A stretch of 45,209 nt of DNA from Flavobacteriales bacterium (GTDB taxonomy: Bacteria; Bacteroidota; Bacteroidia; Flavobacteriales_D; Crocinitomicaceae), in contig CANCQX010000007.1 in assembly GCA_947380375.1 (NCBI GenBank), positions 1-45,209 on the forward strand, in the 5' to 3' direction. A program made the position numbers and the translations under genes. Under the pieces are notes generated by a model that was not told the DNA's origin, made no database searches, and saw nothing but the letters and a program-made list of their open reading frames with translations. Within the stretch, counting starts at the first letter, position 1, and each line of letters opens with the position of its first letter. Of the stretch, positions 17,223 through 24,422 are shown piece after piece.

Positions 17223-20200
17223 ATGAAAGTACTTACTGTTTTACTTATAGGATTTTCTATACCGCTTTTTACTTTTTCACAAAATTTTAATTGCACTTAT
17301 CAAAGTAGCGGACCGAATCCAGAAACACCCTCCCCTCTTATTGCTGTGAATTTATCTTCTGGTCCTTCAGCATCTTCAACGGTACAAATTAACATCCCTT
17401 CAAATGGATTTGGACAATGTTGTGGTTATGGTTCAAACTATAACTGCCTCACTTTAGAAGTTTCTATTCACCCTAATTCAAGCGGTATCTCTTTCAAAGT
17501 TAATGGAGCAAACGGAAATACTTATATCCGACTAAATGACTGTAATTCTACTGTTTATGATGCAGGACATACATTTTGCCCATCAGGTACTGGACCCTAT
17601 TATTTTTCATTTTGCAGAACAGGTTCAACAGATTATGCGATAACTATTACTTCTATAGCCTCTCCAGTAGGACCTGAAAACATTATTACTGCTGATGGTT
17701 GCTCTAAACAATTAAGTGTTTCTGGTTTAGAGCCAAATTCCGTTACTTGGAGTTCGATTGCACAAAATGGTTATAATTCGAATTATTACAATGACTATTT
17801 ATCGAATGTAAACGGAGGACAAATAGGTACCTCAAGTATACTTTACGAACAAAATATTTCAACAGTTTCAGTTACTCCCAAACCTAATTATCCGCCAAAA
17901 ATCACATTTGAAGTTTGCGGAAATCCATTGATTAATACAACTTGTCCAGGCACTACTTTATCAAAATGGTGCGCTACATCGTTTGTATCAATTTACCCTA
18001 CACTTTTCGCTAAAGCTGGTCCAGATATAGCACTTTGTGAAGGTGGTAATGTAACAACTTTTGGAGCTGCAGTTGGAGGAACAGCTCCATATACTTATAC
18101 TTGGACAAATTCATTAGGTAGGATTATATATTCAATTGTAAGTCAAAATGATACCGTACCTATTACGTTTTCTGAAATTGGAGAATATTCACTTTCGATT
18201 AGTGATATTTCTGGGTGTCCTTCAGCATCGGACATTATAAATGTTTCTTCATTTGTTTACGTTCCAACCGCAAACGCTGGAATTGATATTACGACTTGTG
18301 GAGCCTCAATTCCTACTATTCAAATAAATGCTAAAGTATCTCAAACCAATTCAGGACTTTGGAGTGGTGGTCTTGGAACTTTCAAAACAAGTAGAACAGA
18401 TCTTAATTTAGTATATATACCATCTCTAGATGAATTAAATACTGGAATAGCAAAACTTATCTTGACACCAACTAATACTCTTGGTTGTCCTTTTATTGAA
18501 GATACAGTGAAAATTAGCTTAACTAAATTTACATCTTCTATATCTGCAATACCATCAAATATAACTTGCAATGGACTAAAAAACGGATCTATAGACCTTA
18601 CAATAACTCTAGGTTCACCAAACTACGCTATTAAATCTATTTTATGGTCTACTAAAAATACTTCTGAAGACCTATTTAATCTTGGAGTAAATACATATAG
18701 TGTAATTGTAACCGATATAAACGATTGTAAAGATTCGACTTCAGCAACTATTTCTGAACCTTTGATTTTATCAGCTCCAATTACCTCACTTTCAAATATA
18801 AAGTGTTTTGGTGAAAATACTGGTTCATTGACAATTGAGGCAAATGGAGGAACGCCAAATTATAGTTATTCAATAGATAATGAAGCACCTCAAACTACCG
18901 GAATATTTTCCAATTTAATAGCTGGAACACATATAATTACTACAACTGATTCAAAATTATGCACTATCAATCAACTAATTTCAATTTCACAACCAAAAGC
19001 ACCTCTTTCACTTTCAATTATCAAAAAAAACATCTTATGCAACGGCGAAAACTCTGGATCAATTGACCTTACAGTTCTTGGGGGAGCTTCTGGATTTACT
19101 TATATATGGACAGAAATGAATGGGAAATTTATAAATTCAAACGAAGATTTTTCCTTATTAAAAAAAGGTCTGTACAATGTCAAAATTAAAGATTTAAATG
19201 GTTGCGAAATTGACGCAAGTATTCAACTTATTGAACCTTCAAAATTAGAAGGATTTACTAATGTAATTTCAAATTATAACGGACAAGATGTAAGCTGTTT
19301 TAATTCAACAGATGGAAAAATAACTGTTACACCAAATGGAGGAACACCAAACTATTCCTATTTATGGACGGATATTAGTGGCAATACTATTTCAAAGAAT
19401 CAGACCGTAAATAATGTTGGAACTGGAACATATAAGGTAAATATTACAGATTTTAATGGATGTAAATTCAGTAAAGATATAATTGTATCGCAACCATCAC
19501 TTTTAATTTCCGAAACTAAAATACTTTCTAATTACTCTAATAAAGGTGTAAGTTGTGAAGGAGCTTTTGATGGAGAGATAGAAGCAAATGCAATTGGAGG
19601 AACACCTAATTACAGTTTTTCTTGGAATACTTCACCAATTCAAACTTCAAATCGACTGACTAAATTAGGCGTTGGAAACTACATTGTTACTATTTCTGAT
19701 GTTAATGGCTGTCAAACCATAAACTATATTGAACTGACAGCCAATCTATTACCGAAAATAGAATTACCACTTCCAATTAATGTATGCAATGGAAAAAACA
19801 TTTTAATAGATTCTAAAAACATCAATGCGGAAGAATGTACTTGGAAATTTTCAGATGGTAAAAAGATACTAAATTGCAAACCTTTTTTAACCTCTTTTGA
19901 AAATGAGGGATGCGTAGACTTAGAACTAGTCATCAAAAACCGTCAAGGTTGCACCGCTTCAATTACTTCAAAAAATTTCGCATGCATACTCCCTAATCCA
20001 GTAGCAAATTTCAATGCTGATGAATATGAAATATCAAATCTCAAAAACGATGTTTTATTTTCTAATAATTCAATATTAGCAAATACATATAGATGGGATT
20101 TTGGAGATGGGACAGAGGATAATTCACCTTCAAATGTTGAGCACAAATTTAATATCAACGATGATTTCAATAAAAAAACTTATCGAGTTATATTGTATGC

Positions 20201-20543
20201 CTATTCAGAAAATGGATGTTTCGACTCTATTGTAAAACCTATAACTTTTTCTCCTCAATTAATTTATTATGTTCCAAACACTTTTACACCAGACTTTGAC
20301 GAATACAATAACATTTTTAAACCCATCTTTTCATCAGGTTATAATAGCAAAAAATATTCTTTTATGATTTTTAATCGATGGGGGGAGATTATTTTTGAAA
20401 CAAATCTAATAGAAGATGGATGGAATGGAAATTACCAAGATCTTAAATCGCCAGATGGAGTATACACGTGGAAATTAACAATTACAAATTCATTTAATTC
20501 TCAAAAACATGAAGATATTGGACATGTGACATTAATAAGATGA
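17223..20543 (+). CDS. Large secreted SprB-repeat protein with type B T9SS sorting domain
   Basis: An 1106-residue surface or secreted protein. It starts with a signal peptide (MKVLTVLLIGFSIPLFTFSQ) and a cysteine-rich N-terminal domain (about 20-240). Around residues 440-850 there are five SprB-type repeats, each beginning with a cysteine segment such as SNIKCFGENTGS or KNILCNGENSGS, several containing GGTPNY and ending in a D-x-x-G/D-C strand. A PKD-like domain follows (about 925-1000, YRWDFGDGT). The final ~90 residues are the gliding-motility-associated C-terminal domain: VPNTFTPD, FMIFNRWGE, W-x-G-N-Y and the end GHVTLIR, used for export by the type IX system. SprB itself is a gliding adhesin; this shorter protein may be an adhesin or matrix component. 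Its stop is 12 bp from the convergent TIGR02117-type gene. Confidence 0.88.
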   Translation: MKVLTVLLIGFSIPLFTFSQNFNCTYQSSGPNPETPSPLIAVNLSSGPSASSTVQINIPSNGFGQCCGYGSNYNCLTLEVSIHPNSSGISFKVNGANGNTYIRLNDCNSTVYDAGHTFCPSGTGPYYFSFCRTGSTDYAITITSIASPVGPENIITADGCSKQLSVSGLEPNSVTWSSIAQNGYNSNYYNDYLSNVNGGQIGTSSILYEQNISTVSVTPKPNYPPKITFEVCGNPLINTTCPGTTLSKWCATSFVSIYPTLFAKAGPDIALCEGGNVTTFGAAVGGTAPYTYTWTNSLGRIIYSIVSQNDTVPITFSEIGEYSLSISDISGCPSASDIINVSSFVYVPTANAGIDITTCGASIPTIQINAKVSQTNSGLWSGGLGTFKTSRTDLNLVYIPSLDELNTGIAKLILTPTNTLGCPFIEDTVKISLTKFTSSISAIPSNITCNGLKNGSIDLTITLGSPNYAIKSILWSTKNTSEDLFNLGVNTYSVIVTDINDCKDSTSATISEPLILSAPITSLSNIKCFGENTGSLTIEANGGTPNYSYSIDNEAPQTTGIFSNLIAGTHIITTTDSKLCTINQLISISQPKAPLSLSIIKKNILCNGENSGSIDLTVLGGASGFTYIWTEMNGKFINSNEDFSLLKKGLYNVKIKDLNGCEIDASIQLIEPSKLEGFTNVISNYNGQDVSCFNSTDGKITVTPNGGTPNYSYLWTDISGNTISKNQTVNNVGTGTYKVNITDFNGCKFSKDIIVSQPSLLISETKILSNYSNKGVSCEGAFDGEIEANAIGGTPNYSFSWNTSPIQTSNRLTKLGVGNYIVTISDVNGCQTINYIELTANLLPKIELPLPINVCNGKNILIDSKNINAEECTWKFSDGKKILNCKPFLTSFENEGCVDLELVIKNRQGCTASITSKNFACILPNPVANFNADEYEISNLKNDVLFSNNSILANTYRWDFGDGTEDNSPSNVEHKFNINDDFNKKTYRVILYAYSENGCFDSIVKPITFSPQLIYYVPNTFTPDFDEYNNIFKPIFSSGYNSKKYSFMIFNRWGEIIFETNLIEDGWNGNYQDLKSPDGVYTWKLTITNSFNSQKHEDIGHVTLIR

Positions 20544-20555
20544 AATTGAAATCTT

Positions 20556-21224
20556 TCATCTATACTTATGAAATATTCCTGAATTCATTGATGTCCAATA
20601 ACATGCTGGTAGATTTGCTTTTATTAACCCCGTATTAATCCATGTATTACATGTGTTGAAAAGTCCGTAACTACCATTCGTTTCATAAAAAGAATCCGTA
20701 TCCCAATAACCTCTATTTTTAATACATAGATACTTACCATTTATGTTTTTTTTCATAGAATTTAATATGTAATTGCAAAGTGTTAAATACTGTTTGGAAG
20801 AAATAACAAGTTTTACATGTGTATATTTAAAATCTAACTCTTTTAAATAATTCGTGTGTAAAGCGGACTTCCCTAAATAAAAAAAGGCATAAAATATAGT
20901 AGATGCTTTTACATCTGACCATTCAGGAGTATTTAAAAAAAAGCCTTGATCACCCCAACCAATTGAAATAAAATTATTCGTTGAATCTTTCCCTCTAGTA
21001 TTGTTTGGAGAGATTATTTTAGTCCAATTAAAATATTTTGTTTGAACAGGAAAAACATAATCCGTATGAATATAATCTGATTTCATATAAATTGTAACTT
21101 CTCCTTGGGCTGGCTTCTCCCCTATTTGAATTGACATACATATCAAAGAAAGGGTTAAGTATAATAAAATAAATGCTAAAAGGAACTCAGCAGAATACAA
21201 AACAATTTTCAAAATATATTTCAT
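20556..21224 (-). CDS. TIGR02117/DUF2459-type membrane protein
   Basis: A 222-residue protein with one N-terminal membrane helix (about residues 8-33) and a domain facing the periplasm. The motifs fit the TIGR02117/DUF2459 family: SDYIHTDYVFPV near residue 49, SIGWGDQGFFLNTPEW near 87, DSFYETNGSYGLFNTCNTW near 178. The conserved C192 in NTCNTW, with conserved His and Asp/Glu residues, resembles a papain-like cysteine hydrolase, but no activity is established. Its start overlaps the WD40 gene's stop by 4 bp, so it is the last gene of a coupled operon that also holds comA-like and WD40 genes. Confidence 0.75.
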   Translation of the reverse strand: MKYILKIVLYSAEFLLAFILLYLTLSLICMSIQIGEKPAQGEVTIYMKSDYIHTDYVFPVQTKYFNWTKIISPNNTRGKDSTNNFISIGWGDQGFFLNTPEWSDVKASTIFYAFFYLGKSALHTNYLKELDFKYTHVKLVISSKQYLTLCNYILNSMKKNINGKYLCIKNRGYWDTDSFYETNGSYGLFNTCNTWINTGLIKANLPACYWTSMNSGIFHKYR

Positions 21225-22114
21225 TTGTTACTTTTTCCCCAGATAATTACTTTTTTATCATCTCCAACTGACGCAAAAGAATTCTCTGATATTTTAGAAA
21301 TATTATTTACCGAATGTTTATGACCTCCTGATTTTTGATCTAAACGCTGAACAACTTCTAAAGATTCTGTATTCCAGATTTTAATCGATTTATCCCTACT
21401 TGCGGTAATAAATTTTGTATTGTTTTCTATAAAACAGATATCATATAAAACGTAGTTATGAGCAGGAATACTTTTAATTAATTCTGAAGTTTGCCAATTC
21501 CAGATATTTAAATGAGCATCTTTTCCTCCTGTTAATAAGAGACTTGGATTTAGAGGGTAGAAATGCGAAATTGTCGCTCCTCCAACGTGGGTGTTCAAAG
21601 TTATTATTTCGTTGAATCCTACCGTTTCAAAAATTCGAGTTGTACCATCTTGGCAACTTACCACAAATAAATCTCCCTGTTCTGAAACATGAATATTTCT
21701 AATTTTACCGCAATCTAAGGGAAGATAAATTAAAAGTTCAAATGTTTTCGAATTCCAAATTGATAAATTACCATCAGCATCACCAATATAAAATTGAGAT
21801 TTATTTTTATTATACGAAATCGAGAAAACTGCTTTGATATGTTGCTTAAAATTTTTAATCTCCTTATTCAATTGGAGATCAAATATATGCACTGAACCAT
21901 TTGATAAACCAACAACAATTATTTTTTCATCAATAAAATCAATCGAATAAACTGATTGATCCATTTTAATTGCAAATTTATCTTGAATAGCTTCATCTAC
22001 TTTCCAACGAGTGACAAAATGATCAGCACTTCCTGTATAAATAAAATTTCCATCAAAACAACTTGTATAAATTGCTCCAGAATGACCCGAAATCTCTTTT
22101 ATTTTTTTATACAC
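21221..22114 (-). CDS. Seven-bladed WD40 repeat protein
   Basis: A 297-residue protein made almost wholly of seven WD40 repeats, one complete beta-propeller. Repeat ends are clear: VTRWKV, VHIFDL, LSIWNS, TRIFET, LNIWNW, IKIWNT and VIIWGK, most preceded by a GH-like turn and a D in the tight turn. There is no signal peptide, so it should be cytoplasmic and act as a protein-binding platform. The start codon is GTG at 22114; no ATG lies between the upstream in-frame stop and residue 52, and the first blade begins at once. It starts 4 bp after the comA-like stop and overlaps the TIGR02117-type gene by 4 bp. WD40 proteins this small and unfused are uncommon in bacteria. Confidence 0.88.
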   Translation of the reverse strand: MYKKIKEISGHSGAIYTSCFDGNFIYTGSADHFVTRWKVDEAIQDKFAIKMDQSVYSIDFIDEKIIVVGLSNGSVHIFDLQLNKEIKNFKQHIKAVFSISYNKNKSQFYIGDADGNLSIWNSKTFELLIYLPLDCGKIRNIHVSEQGDLFVVSCQDGTTRIFETVGFNEIITLNTHVGGATISHFYPLNPSLLLTGGKDAHLNIWNWQTSELIKSIPAHNYVLYDICFIENNTKFITASRDKSIKIWNTESLEVVQRLDQKSGGHKHSVNNISKISENSFASVGDDKKVIIWGKSNK

Positions 22115-22118
22115 TGAA

Positions 22119-22937
22119 TTAAGCTTCTTCCTCTTCTTCTATTTCGTCATTCACTTGTTTCAAACGATCAGAATAATCAGAAGGTAAAAATTCAAAAAAT
22201 GTATCTCCTCTTAGACCTAAACGAAGACATTCCAAAGGAATCATTTCATTTGGACCAATATTTCCAAGGTTAACATTTGCACCAAACAGCTTAATAAACC
22301 AAACTTGTTGATTTTTTTGAGGTGCTTCCCAAAGAATATCTCCTGGGTCAACTTTTGAAATTATTTTATTGATTAAATAGGTATGAGCAGTTCCATTTGG
22401 TCTAAAAACACCAACGTTTCCAGCTTCACGACCTTCAGCAATGACCTTCCATGAACCAGCTTCTAGTTCGGTACTCATCATCTTCACCCATTTACTCGGT
22501 GAAACAATAATTCCAGAATCTTTAGAACCAACCTCAGACATTATGGTTCTTTCTTTAGAAAATCGATGAATCAATTCACATTTTTCAGAATGATTCATAA
22601 TTATAGAACCATCAGAAATTTCAGCTAATTCAAGATTGTATTTATCAAGTAAACGTAGATAATCATCTACAAGTCCTCGAGCATAAAAAGCTTCAAATAA
22701 AGTACCACCGAAATAAGGCTTTATACCAGCCTCTTTATATAGATCAATTTTTTTCTGTAAATCATTTGTAACGAAAGCTGTACCAAATCCAAACTTTGCA
22801 ACATCTGTTAAATGACCAGATGCAGATATAAAATCTTCAGTCTCTCTAAAACTAAGACCTTTATCCATCATCATTGTCAGCCCTTTTTGACGAGGCTTAT
22901 TTGTTCTTTCTGGTATATAAGGTAATTCGAAATTCAT
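22119..22937 (-). CDS. Phosphosulfolactate synthase (ComA family)
   Basis: A 272-residue (beta/alpha)8 protein of the ComA family, which joins sulfite to phosphoenolpyruvate to give (R)-2-phospho-3-sulfolactate. Typical segments are KFGFGTAFV, YFGGTLFEAF, LELAEISDGSI, SEVGSKDSG and LRLGLRGDTF. In methanogens the reaction opens coenzyme M synthesis; in some Bacillus it leads to sulfolactate. Bacteroidota have neither full pathway as a rule but many make sulfonolipids, so a sulfonate product is a reasonable guess only. ComB and ComC partners are not in the window. The C terminus ends in an acidic run (NDEIEEEEEA). It is the head of a coupled run with the WD40 and TIGR02117-type genes. Confidence 0.87.
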   Translation of the reverse strand: MNFELPYIPERTNKPRQKGLTMMMDKGLSFRETEDFISASGHLTDVAKFGFGTAFVTNDLQKKIDLYKEAGIKPYFGGTLFEAFYARGLVDDYLRLLDKYNLELAEISDGSIIMNHSEKCELIHRFSKERTIMSEVGSKDSGIIVSPSKWVKMMSTELEAGSWKVIAEGREAGNVGVFRPNGTAHTYLINKIISKVDPGDILWEAPQKNQQVWFIKLFGANVNLGNIGPNEMIPLECLRLGLRGDTFFEFLPSDYSDRLKQVNDEIEEEEEA

Positions 22938-23015: not shown

Positions 23016-24422
23016 TTAATCTTCAGCCAATTCATTAAACTGAGATATCTTCAAGAATTCAGGATATAATTCAAATAATTCCTTAGCATTTTCCTTGTTA
23101 TTATTAGTACAATCAGCAAATAGACTTAAAGATTCTTTTTTCAAACCTAATTTCCAAAGAATATTGACTTTCAATAACGGAGCAATTTCATTTTCTGAAT
23201 TAGAAATTATAAAATCGGAAATATATTTATTAGCTTCTTTCAAAGAATGTTTAATTAATAAGTTTACATAACTAGTTAAGCATTCCTCATCTGTAGAATC
23301 AATCCCTAATGCCATTAGATAATATTCTTTAGCTAAATCAATTTCATCTAATTTCTCGTGCGCTCCTGCTAACACAGAATAAATACCAGCATTTTCAGGA
23401 TCTAATTCAACCGCTTTATTAATTAAAACTATTCCTTCTCTTGTTCTACCTTCTAAATCCTCAACAATACCTAGACCTAACCAAGCATCAGGAAGTAAAG
23501 GAGCTAATTCTAAACTTTGTTTGTAAAATTCTTTTGCTAAAGCTAATTCACCTAATTGTTCGTGTGCCTCTCCGATATAACATAAAGCAACAGGATCTTC
23601 GCCATCCAACTCCATACATTTATTAAAATTATCTATTGACAATTGATATTTGTCTGTAGATAAATAAGCATTACCTAGATTAAAATATACTGGGCCAAAA
23701 TCTTCATTAATTAAAACACAATAATCATAAGCCCAAATCGCTTTATCAAAGTCCTCGGATTTAGAAAAAGCATTACCTAAATTGTACCAAGCAGTGAAAG
23801 AATATGGATTTTCATCAATAAAATCGGAGTAACATTTAATAGCCTTTTCATAATCTCCTAATTGATCATAACAAAAAGCAAGTTCATAAATTGCACCTTC
23901 ATTCTTCGGATTGTATATAATTGCATCTTTCAAAACAACTAAGGCTCCTTTATAATCATTTAAATTTTCATATTCCATTGCTAAATCTAGAAATATTTCA
24001 TCTCTATCTTCAGGTTCTGATAATAATAATGATTCTTTAAAATATTTAATAGCACTTTTAGAATCTCTTAATTGACTAAAAATTGAAGCTTTTGTTAATA
24101 ATATTTCACAATTAGGTTGTTCCATTTTCTCAATTTGAGAAATAACATTCAATGCTTCTTTCAATTGTCCCATAGCTGACATAGCTTGAGCAAGTCGTAA
24201 TGAAAAAACAATATTAAAAGAAAATTGAGATATAGCATGCTCAGCACAAAGCTTCGCTTTATTATACTGACTAGCAATCAAATAACTATCAATTATCCCT
24301 TCTAATCTATCACTATCTAGGAAACCAATTTCACCACCTTTTAAAAAAGAATCAAAACGCTCTATATCCTCATTTAGATTCCCTTCAAAGTATCCATCTT
24401 CTTCTTCTTCATCGTCAAACAT
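23016..24422 (-). CDS. Tetratricopeptide repeat protein
   Basis: A 468-residue protein composed mostly of TPR helices (about residues 40-440, ten or more units). The central units are canonical, for example AWYNLGNAFSKSEDFDKAIWAYDYCV and PVYFNLGNAYLSTDKYQLSIDNF read as 34-residue blocks. The N terminus is very acidic (MFDDEEEEDGYFEGN) and there is no signal peptide, so it is probably cytoplasmic and serves in protein-protein contacts. TPR proteins of this layout are widespread in Flavobacteriia without known role. It lies between the typA terminator and the comA-like gene and may be part of the same transcript as the latter. Confidence 0.88.
   Translation of the reverse strand: MFDDEEEEDGYFEGNLNEDIERFDSFLKGGEIGFLDSDRLEGIIDSYLIASQYNKAKLCAEHAISQFSFNIVFSLRLAQAMSAMGQLKEALNVISQIEKMEQPNCEILLTKASIFSQLRDSKSAIKYFKESLLLSEPEDRDEIFLDLAMEYENLNDYKGALVVLKDAIIYNPKNEGAIYELAFCYDQLGDYEKAIKCYSDFIDENPYSFTAWYNLGNAFSKSEDFDKAIWAYDYCVLINEDFGPVYFNLGNAYLSTDKYQLSIDNFNKCMELDGEDPVALCYIGEAHEQLGELALAKEFYKQSLELAPLLPDAWLGLGIVEDLEGRTREGIVLINKAVELDPENAGIYSVLAGAHEKLDEIDLAKEYYLMALGIDSTDEECLTSYVNLLIKHSLKEANKYISDFIISNSENEIAPLLKVNILWKLGLKKESLSLFADCTNNNKENAKELFELYPEFLKISQFNELAED

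Follow-up and report, generated by a model that had tools for sequence, protein, structure and literature searches.

A ComA homologue encoded in a tightly spaced run of genes probably acts with an unlinked ComB to supply sulfolactate-derived cysteate to SulA, and the WD40, DUF2459, and TPR genes that surround it are, on this reading, mere neighbors. Sulfonolipids have been tied to gliding, gut inflammation, and choanoflagellate rosette development (PMC10191378). Most of the SulA-bearing genomes that we sampled carry neither of the two known cysteate synthases. If our assignment is correct, ComA and ComB are the named genes of this missing supply branch, and a use has been found for an orphan “coenzyme M” enzyme that is common in non-methanogens. 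No statement linking ComA and ComB to sulfonolipids was found in the open-access papers searched, and priority for the link is not certain.

Gene Arrangement at the comA Locus

The window, by which we mean the whole stretch of 45,209 nucleotides that was analyzed, is contig C7 of a 3.05-Mb Flavobacteriales genome that is 96% complete. The genes considered here lie on its minus strand:

20556..21224, minus strand: DUF2459/TIGR02117 membrane-anchored protein, 222 aa (PF09601 and TIGR02117 matches)
21221..22114, minus strand: stand-alone seven-bladed WD40 propeller, 297 aa, GTG start (WD40 matches and model)
22119..22937, minus strand: ComA homologue, 272 aa (PF02679 match)
23016..24422, minus strand: TPR protein upstream of ComA, in the same run, after a 78-bp gap

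The initial annotation had described the first three of these genes as a closely packed group comprising a ComA homologue, a seven-bladed propeller, and a membrane protein with an NTCNTW motif, and this description is accurate. The open reading frame coordinates give the order ComA-WD40-DUF2459 with a 4-bp gap (22115-22118) and a 4-bp overlap (21221-21224), the WD40 protein is modeled with 28 strands in seven sets of four (AlphaFold2, 27-row alignment, pLDDT 97.3), and the motif occupies residues 190-195 of the membrane protein. The upstream TPR gene was absent from that group. A scan of the locus for promoters and terminators gave no signal above that of shuffled sequences, and a PADLOC search for a defense association returned generic repeat matches only.

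The DUF2459 protein exceeds the cut-offs of both family models (PF09601, 163.3 bits versus 27; TIGR02117, 134.6 versus 131), and its residues C192, H53, and H123 are invariant in 18 homologues. One N-terminal helix is predicted with fair confidence. Its fold model was poor (pLDDT 42) and was left out of use, and a profile search of the PDB found no solved relative (best E value 0.2). Convergent to this gene in the window is a gene for an SprB-repeat protein with a type IX secretion sorting domain (17223-20543). An SprB-repeat protein is also encoded near DUF2459 in genome G087 (locus L357), and in G029 the DUF2459 gene directly adjoins pyrG.

The Three-Gene Grouping Is a Local Arrangement

The initial annotation had further proposed that the three genes form a dedicated sulfonate pathway unit in which the membrane protein processes the product. 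The tight spacing in the window favors such a unit, as does the presence of DUF2459 beside ComA-WD40 in seven of the eight complete loci from the same genus (one lacks it). However, a survey of ComA neighborhoods, which that annotation had suggested, largely refutes the proposal. The outcome that the annotation had named as refuting, ComA-like genes in relatives without the other two, is what the survey shows. Of 30 ComA loci belonging to the family's other genera, none has DUF2459 beside ComA, and where DUF2459 is present in family genomes outside the genus, it lies at other sites. The WD40 gene directly follows ComA in 28/78 named loci, nearly all from close relatives and mainly from the same family; outside the family, ComA mostly occurs without it. 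In loci that lack WD40 at this position, a rhodanese gene most often comes next (39/78 loci), then DUF368 or DedA, and then AroE. In addition, ComB and SulA are encoded elsewhere in the genome. Because DUF2459 is a genus-level neighbor and WD40 a family-level neighbor, the three-gene unit is best viewed as a local arrangement. We rejected it as a functional unit, given that the linkage is not kept beyond the genus, and a dedicated three-gene pathway now seems extremely improbable.

The TPR gene shows a different distribution. It precedes ComA in 77/78 loci (76 directly, with a median gap of 2 bp), and the TPR-ComA order recurs in several further families within the class. Its orthologues are present in many ComA-negative genomes, and for this reason we take the TPR-ComA order to be ancient and not the mark of a dedicated pair, and we rejected the TPR protein as a dedicated partner of ComA. 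Thus, the WD40, DUF2459, and TPR genes are probably bystanders, and we propose that they are co-transcribed with ComA or are its neighbors by chance. The rhodanese found in half of the named loci is a possible link to sulfite.

Several other features of these neighborhoods were observed. The closest named ComA loci are from Crocinitomicaceae and Fluviicola metagenome-assembled genomes (MAGs), and DUF2459 also lies beside ComA-WD40 in one named relative, L092. This locus and five others (L106, L116, L119, L141, and L170) come from MAG records titled Chryseobacterium gleum, Chitinophaga pinensis, or Sphingomonadales. The genes around ComA in these records are Crocinitomicaceae-like or otherwise Flavobacteriales-like, and the species labels look wrong. 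Downstream of ComA in L122-L171, DUF368 (PF04018, undecaprenyl phosphate translocase-like) and DedA (VTT domain) share one slot in different lineages, between ComA/rhodanese and AroE, in what appears to be a swap of two lipid-carrier translocase families.

ComA and ComB Are Predicted to Yield (R)-Sulfolactate

The ComA homologue matches PF02679 over its full length (positions 1-243 of 243) with 287.7 bits versus a cut-off of 25.2. It also aligns at full length with Bacillus subtilis YitD (1U83; E value 1.6e-52, ~41% identity) and with Methanocaldococcus jannaschii ComA (MjComA, 1QWG; E value 5.6e-47, ~42% identity). The three proteins share 68 identical positions, including K139 (K137 in MjComA). 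Polar or charged residues account for 31 of the common positions, among them K48, E82, E106, E135, K139, E168, R170, E171, E204, K208, R239, and R243. The score against the archaeal ComA equivalog TIGR03849 is 239.1 bits, below the cut-off of 280, which a bacterial member may miss. Based on these sequence similarities, we infer that the protein acts as a phosphosulfolactate synthase, using phosphoenolpyruvate and sulfite.

Almost all genomes of the family carry ComA: 114/120 overall and 93 of the 95 good ones. In another family, f35, ComA adjoins a glycogen-synthase-like gene (L062, L069, L077, L079, L085-L088, and L091), and several f35 genomes carry two ComA copies. The ComA of genome G538 is divergent (127 bits).

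The initial annotation had noted that neither ComB nor ComC is present. This holds for the window, but the genome does encode a ComB:

G000:C34:3930-4562: ComB (PF04029), same genome, unlinked; 250 bits versus a cut-off of 26.4

The closest solved chains to this protein are 2yyv and 1vr0, both probable 2-phosphosulfolactate phosphatases. Within a sample of 392 Bacteroidota genomes, ComB accompanies ComA in 99 of the 100 genomes whose ComA is over the cut-off, and it is found in 118/292 genomes without ComA (Fisher P = 5e-30, a value that ignores shared ancestry). Its presence in these 118 genomes indicates that ComB has other roles too. A ComC-type dehydrogenase (Ldh_2, PF02615) was found neither in this genome nor in any of 40 relatives, and a search of the ComB and SulA neighborhoods for a sulfolactate dehydrogenase found none. 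Because ComB is present and a ComC-type dehydrogenase is absent, the predicted product is (R)-sulfolactate rather than coenzyme M.

Plant HSA32 is a protein of the ComA fold that is not known to have an activity, which raises the question of whether the homologue studied here might be a stress protein of this kind instead of a sulfonate enzyme. This is very unlikely, given that the polar residues common to YitD and MjComA are retained and that ComB accompanies ComA almost without exception.

SulA Co-Occurs with ComA or, in Other Genomes, with CapA

The genome also encodes SulA, the enzyme of the committing step in sulfonolipid synthesis, at an unlinked site:

C4:11420-12697: SulA, alpha-oxoamine synthase, same genome, unlinked; 594 bits to 7u7h

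In addition to its match to 7u7h, which we regard as the structure of SulA from A. finegoldii, this protein scores 574 bits to 28eh (“Cysteate-C-fatty acyltransferase”) and only 217 bits to serine palmitoyltransferase. The active sites of SulA and Spt differ at Lys281 of SulA, which is Ala in Spt (PMC9304779). This diagnostic lysine is present in the SulA identified here and in 53/53 aligned SulA rows, whereas Ala is found in 4/4 SPT-type paralogues. Proteins scoring at least 367 bits were counted as SulA orthologues, with paralogues scoring 248 bits or less.

A known route obtains cysteate through CapA, a cysteate synthase that uses phosphoserine and sulfite (PMC10191378). Next to sulA, several genomes without ComA encode a PALP enzyme that fits CapA. 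We use the name CapA on the basis of this adjacency, kinship to cystathionine beta-synthase, and the cited review, rather than a published CapA sequence. In a tree of the best PALP matches, 14 proteins form one CapA clade apart from cystathionine beta-synthase (support 100/100); a ComA genome with only a distant PALP match, G528, was left out of this tree. CapA adjoins sulA in 12 of these 14 genomes. The best match from the genome under study falls in the cystathionine beta-synthase clade, and no CapA was found there.

We drew 80 genomes from the phylum sample so as to spread over families; 40 of them carry ComA and 40 lack it. SulA is present in 34/40 genomes with ComA and in 19/40 without it (53/80 in total), and the genes are distributed as follows:

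ComA, ComB, and SulA, without CapA: 34/80 genomes
CapA and SulA, without ComA or ComB: 14/80 genomes
SulA without ComA or CapA: 5/80 genomes, three with ComB
ComA and ComB, without SulA: 6/80 genomes
ComB alone: 13/80 genomes
None of ComA, ComB, SulA, and CapA: 8/80 genomes
ComA and CapA together: 0/80 genomes

Fisher tests on this table give P values of 1e-9 and 5e-9, in which relatives are counted many times; these values overstate the case because the source label (ComA or CapA) changes only a few times on the SulA tree. There, the CapA users and two rows without a source make up one clade nested among ComA users, and therefore the swap from ComA plus ComB to CapA may have occurred once. 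In genus g72 of family f14, two genomes lack ComA, ComB, and SulA, and sampled sister genera retain SulA and ComB. The SulA genomes with neither source are two from f18 and three from f14 g87 (G599, G696, and G708), which keep SulA and ComB. What is left is a coherent pattern that rests on a small number of events: a single swap, a triple loss, and the exceptions. An archaeal-type cysteate synthase (TIGR03844) was rejected as an alternative source, as it is over the cut-off in no SulA genome and only in G423, which lacks SulA.

Another interpretation is that the (R)-3-sulfolactate formed by ComA and ComB is itself an end product (a solute or an excreted sulfonate, as in Bacillus spores) unrelated to sulfonolipids, and that the co-occurrence with SulA reflects shared ancestry. 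B. subtilis, a control genome, encodes both the ComA and ComB families, and the failure to find a ComC-family dehydrogenase is in keeping with an end product. Moreover, six of the 40 ComA genomes (G343, G388, G485, G538, G639, and G647) carry ComA and ComB without SulA, so sulfolactate needs another use in these organisms. Nevertheless, we think that this interpretation is unlikely. It leaves the 34 ComA genomes that have SulA without a known cysteate source, with no CapA and with TIGR03844 below its cut-off, and both ComA and ComB are missing from 14/14 CapA genomes.

A Proposed Route to Cysteate for Sulfonolipids

Because ComB and SulA are present together with ComA, and CapA is complementary to it, this set of unlinked genes suggests that, in many Bacteroidota, the sulfonate head of the membrane sulfonolipids is drawn from phosphoenolpyruvate and sulfite rather than from phosphoserine. 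In the proposed route, ComA would join sulfite to phosphoenolpyruvate to form phosphosulfolactate, which the unlinked ComB would dephosphorylate to (R)-3-sulfolactate. Two further steps that we infer would follow: oxidation to sulfopyruvate by a putative dehydrogenase and transamination to cysteate by a putative aminotransferase. The unlinked SulA, a cysteate acyl-ACP transferase, would then use this cysteate to start sulfonolipid (capnine) synthesis. ComA and ComB would in this way take the place that CapA holds in other Bacteroidota that make sulfonolipids. The homologies, the presence of ComB and SulA, and the distributions were computed, whereas the activities of the enzymes, the two steps between sulfolactate and cysteate, and the incorporation of the product into lipid are predicted.

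Several observations count against cysteate supply by ComA and ComB: the Ldh_2 family is found in 0/40 relatives, comA, comB, and sulA are unclustered, six ComA genomes lack SulA, and among the SulA genomes there are five that lack both ComA and CapA, three of them with ComB. Even so, the initial suggestion that ComA serves a sulfonate or sulfonolipid route survives in another form. The co-presence of ComB and SulA and the complementarity of ComA and CapA speak for it, whereas the three-gene unit and product processing by the membrane protein have fallen away; the operon is not the pathway, and ComA and ComB as a cysteate supply for SulA is the probable one. For the phylum at large, the balance tips slightly toward many Bacteroidota making sulfonolipid cysteate via phosphosulfolactate, by a route older than CapA, with the f16/f17/f18 lineage having swapped to CapA.

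Relation to Known Systems

The DUF2459 protein of the window belongs to the DUF2459/TIGR02117 family by both cut-offs. Like the ComA/YitD phosphosulfolactate synthases (PF02679; 1QWG and 1U83), the ComA homologue is matched at full length and shares the 68 identical positions, but it misses the TIGR03849 cut-off, and comB and comC do not lie beside it. The genome has ComA and ComB in common with the coenzyme M route (ComA-ComB-ComC-ComDE). It differs in that the ComC family is absent from the 40 relatives and there is no methanogenesis context. With the capnine/sulfonolipid route CapA-CapB(SulA)-CapC (PMC10191378, PMC9304779, PMC11211663), it shares a SulA/CapB orthologue bearing the diagnostic lysine, and the difference is that CapA is replaced, as we propose, by ComA and ComB. 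These two enzymes would constitute a third source of cysteate, in addition to CapA and the archaeal-type cysteate synthase found in Alistipes.
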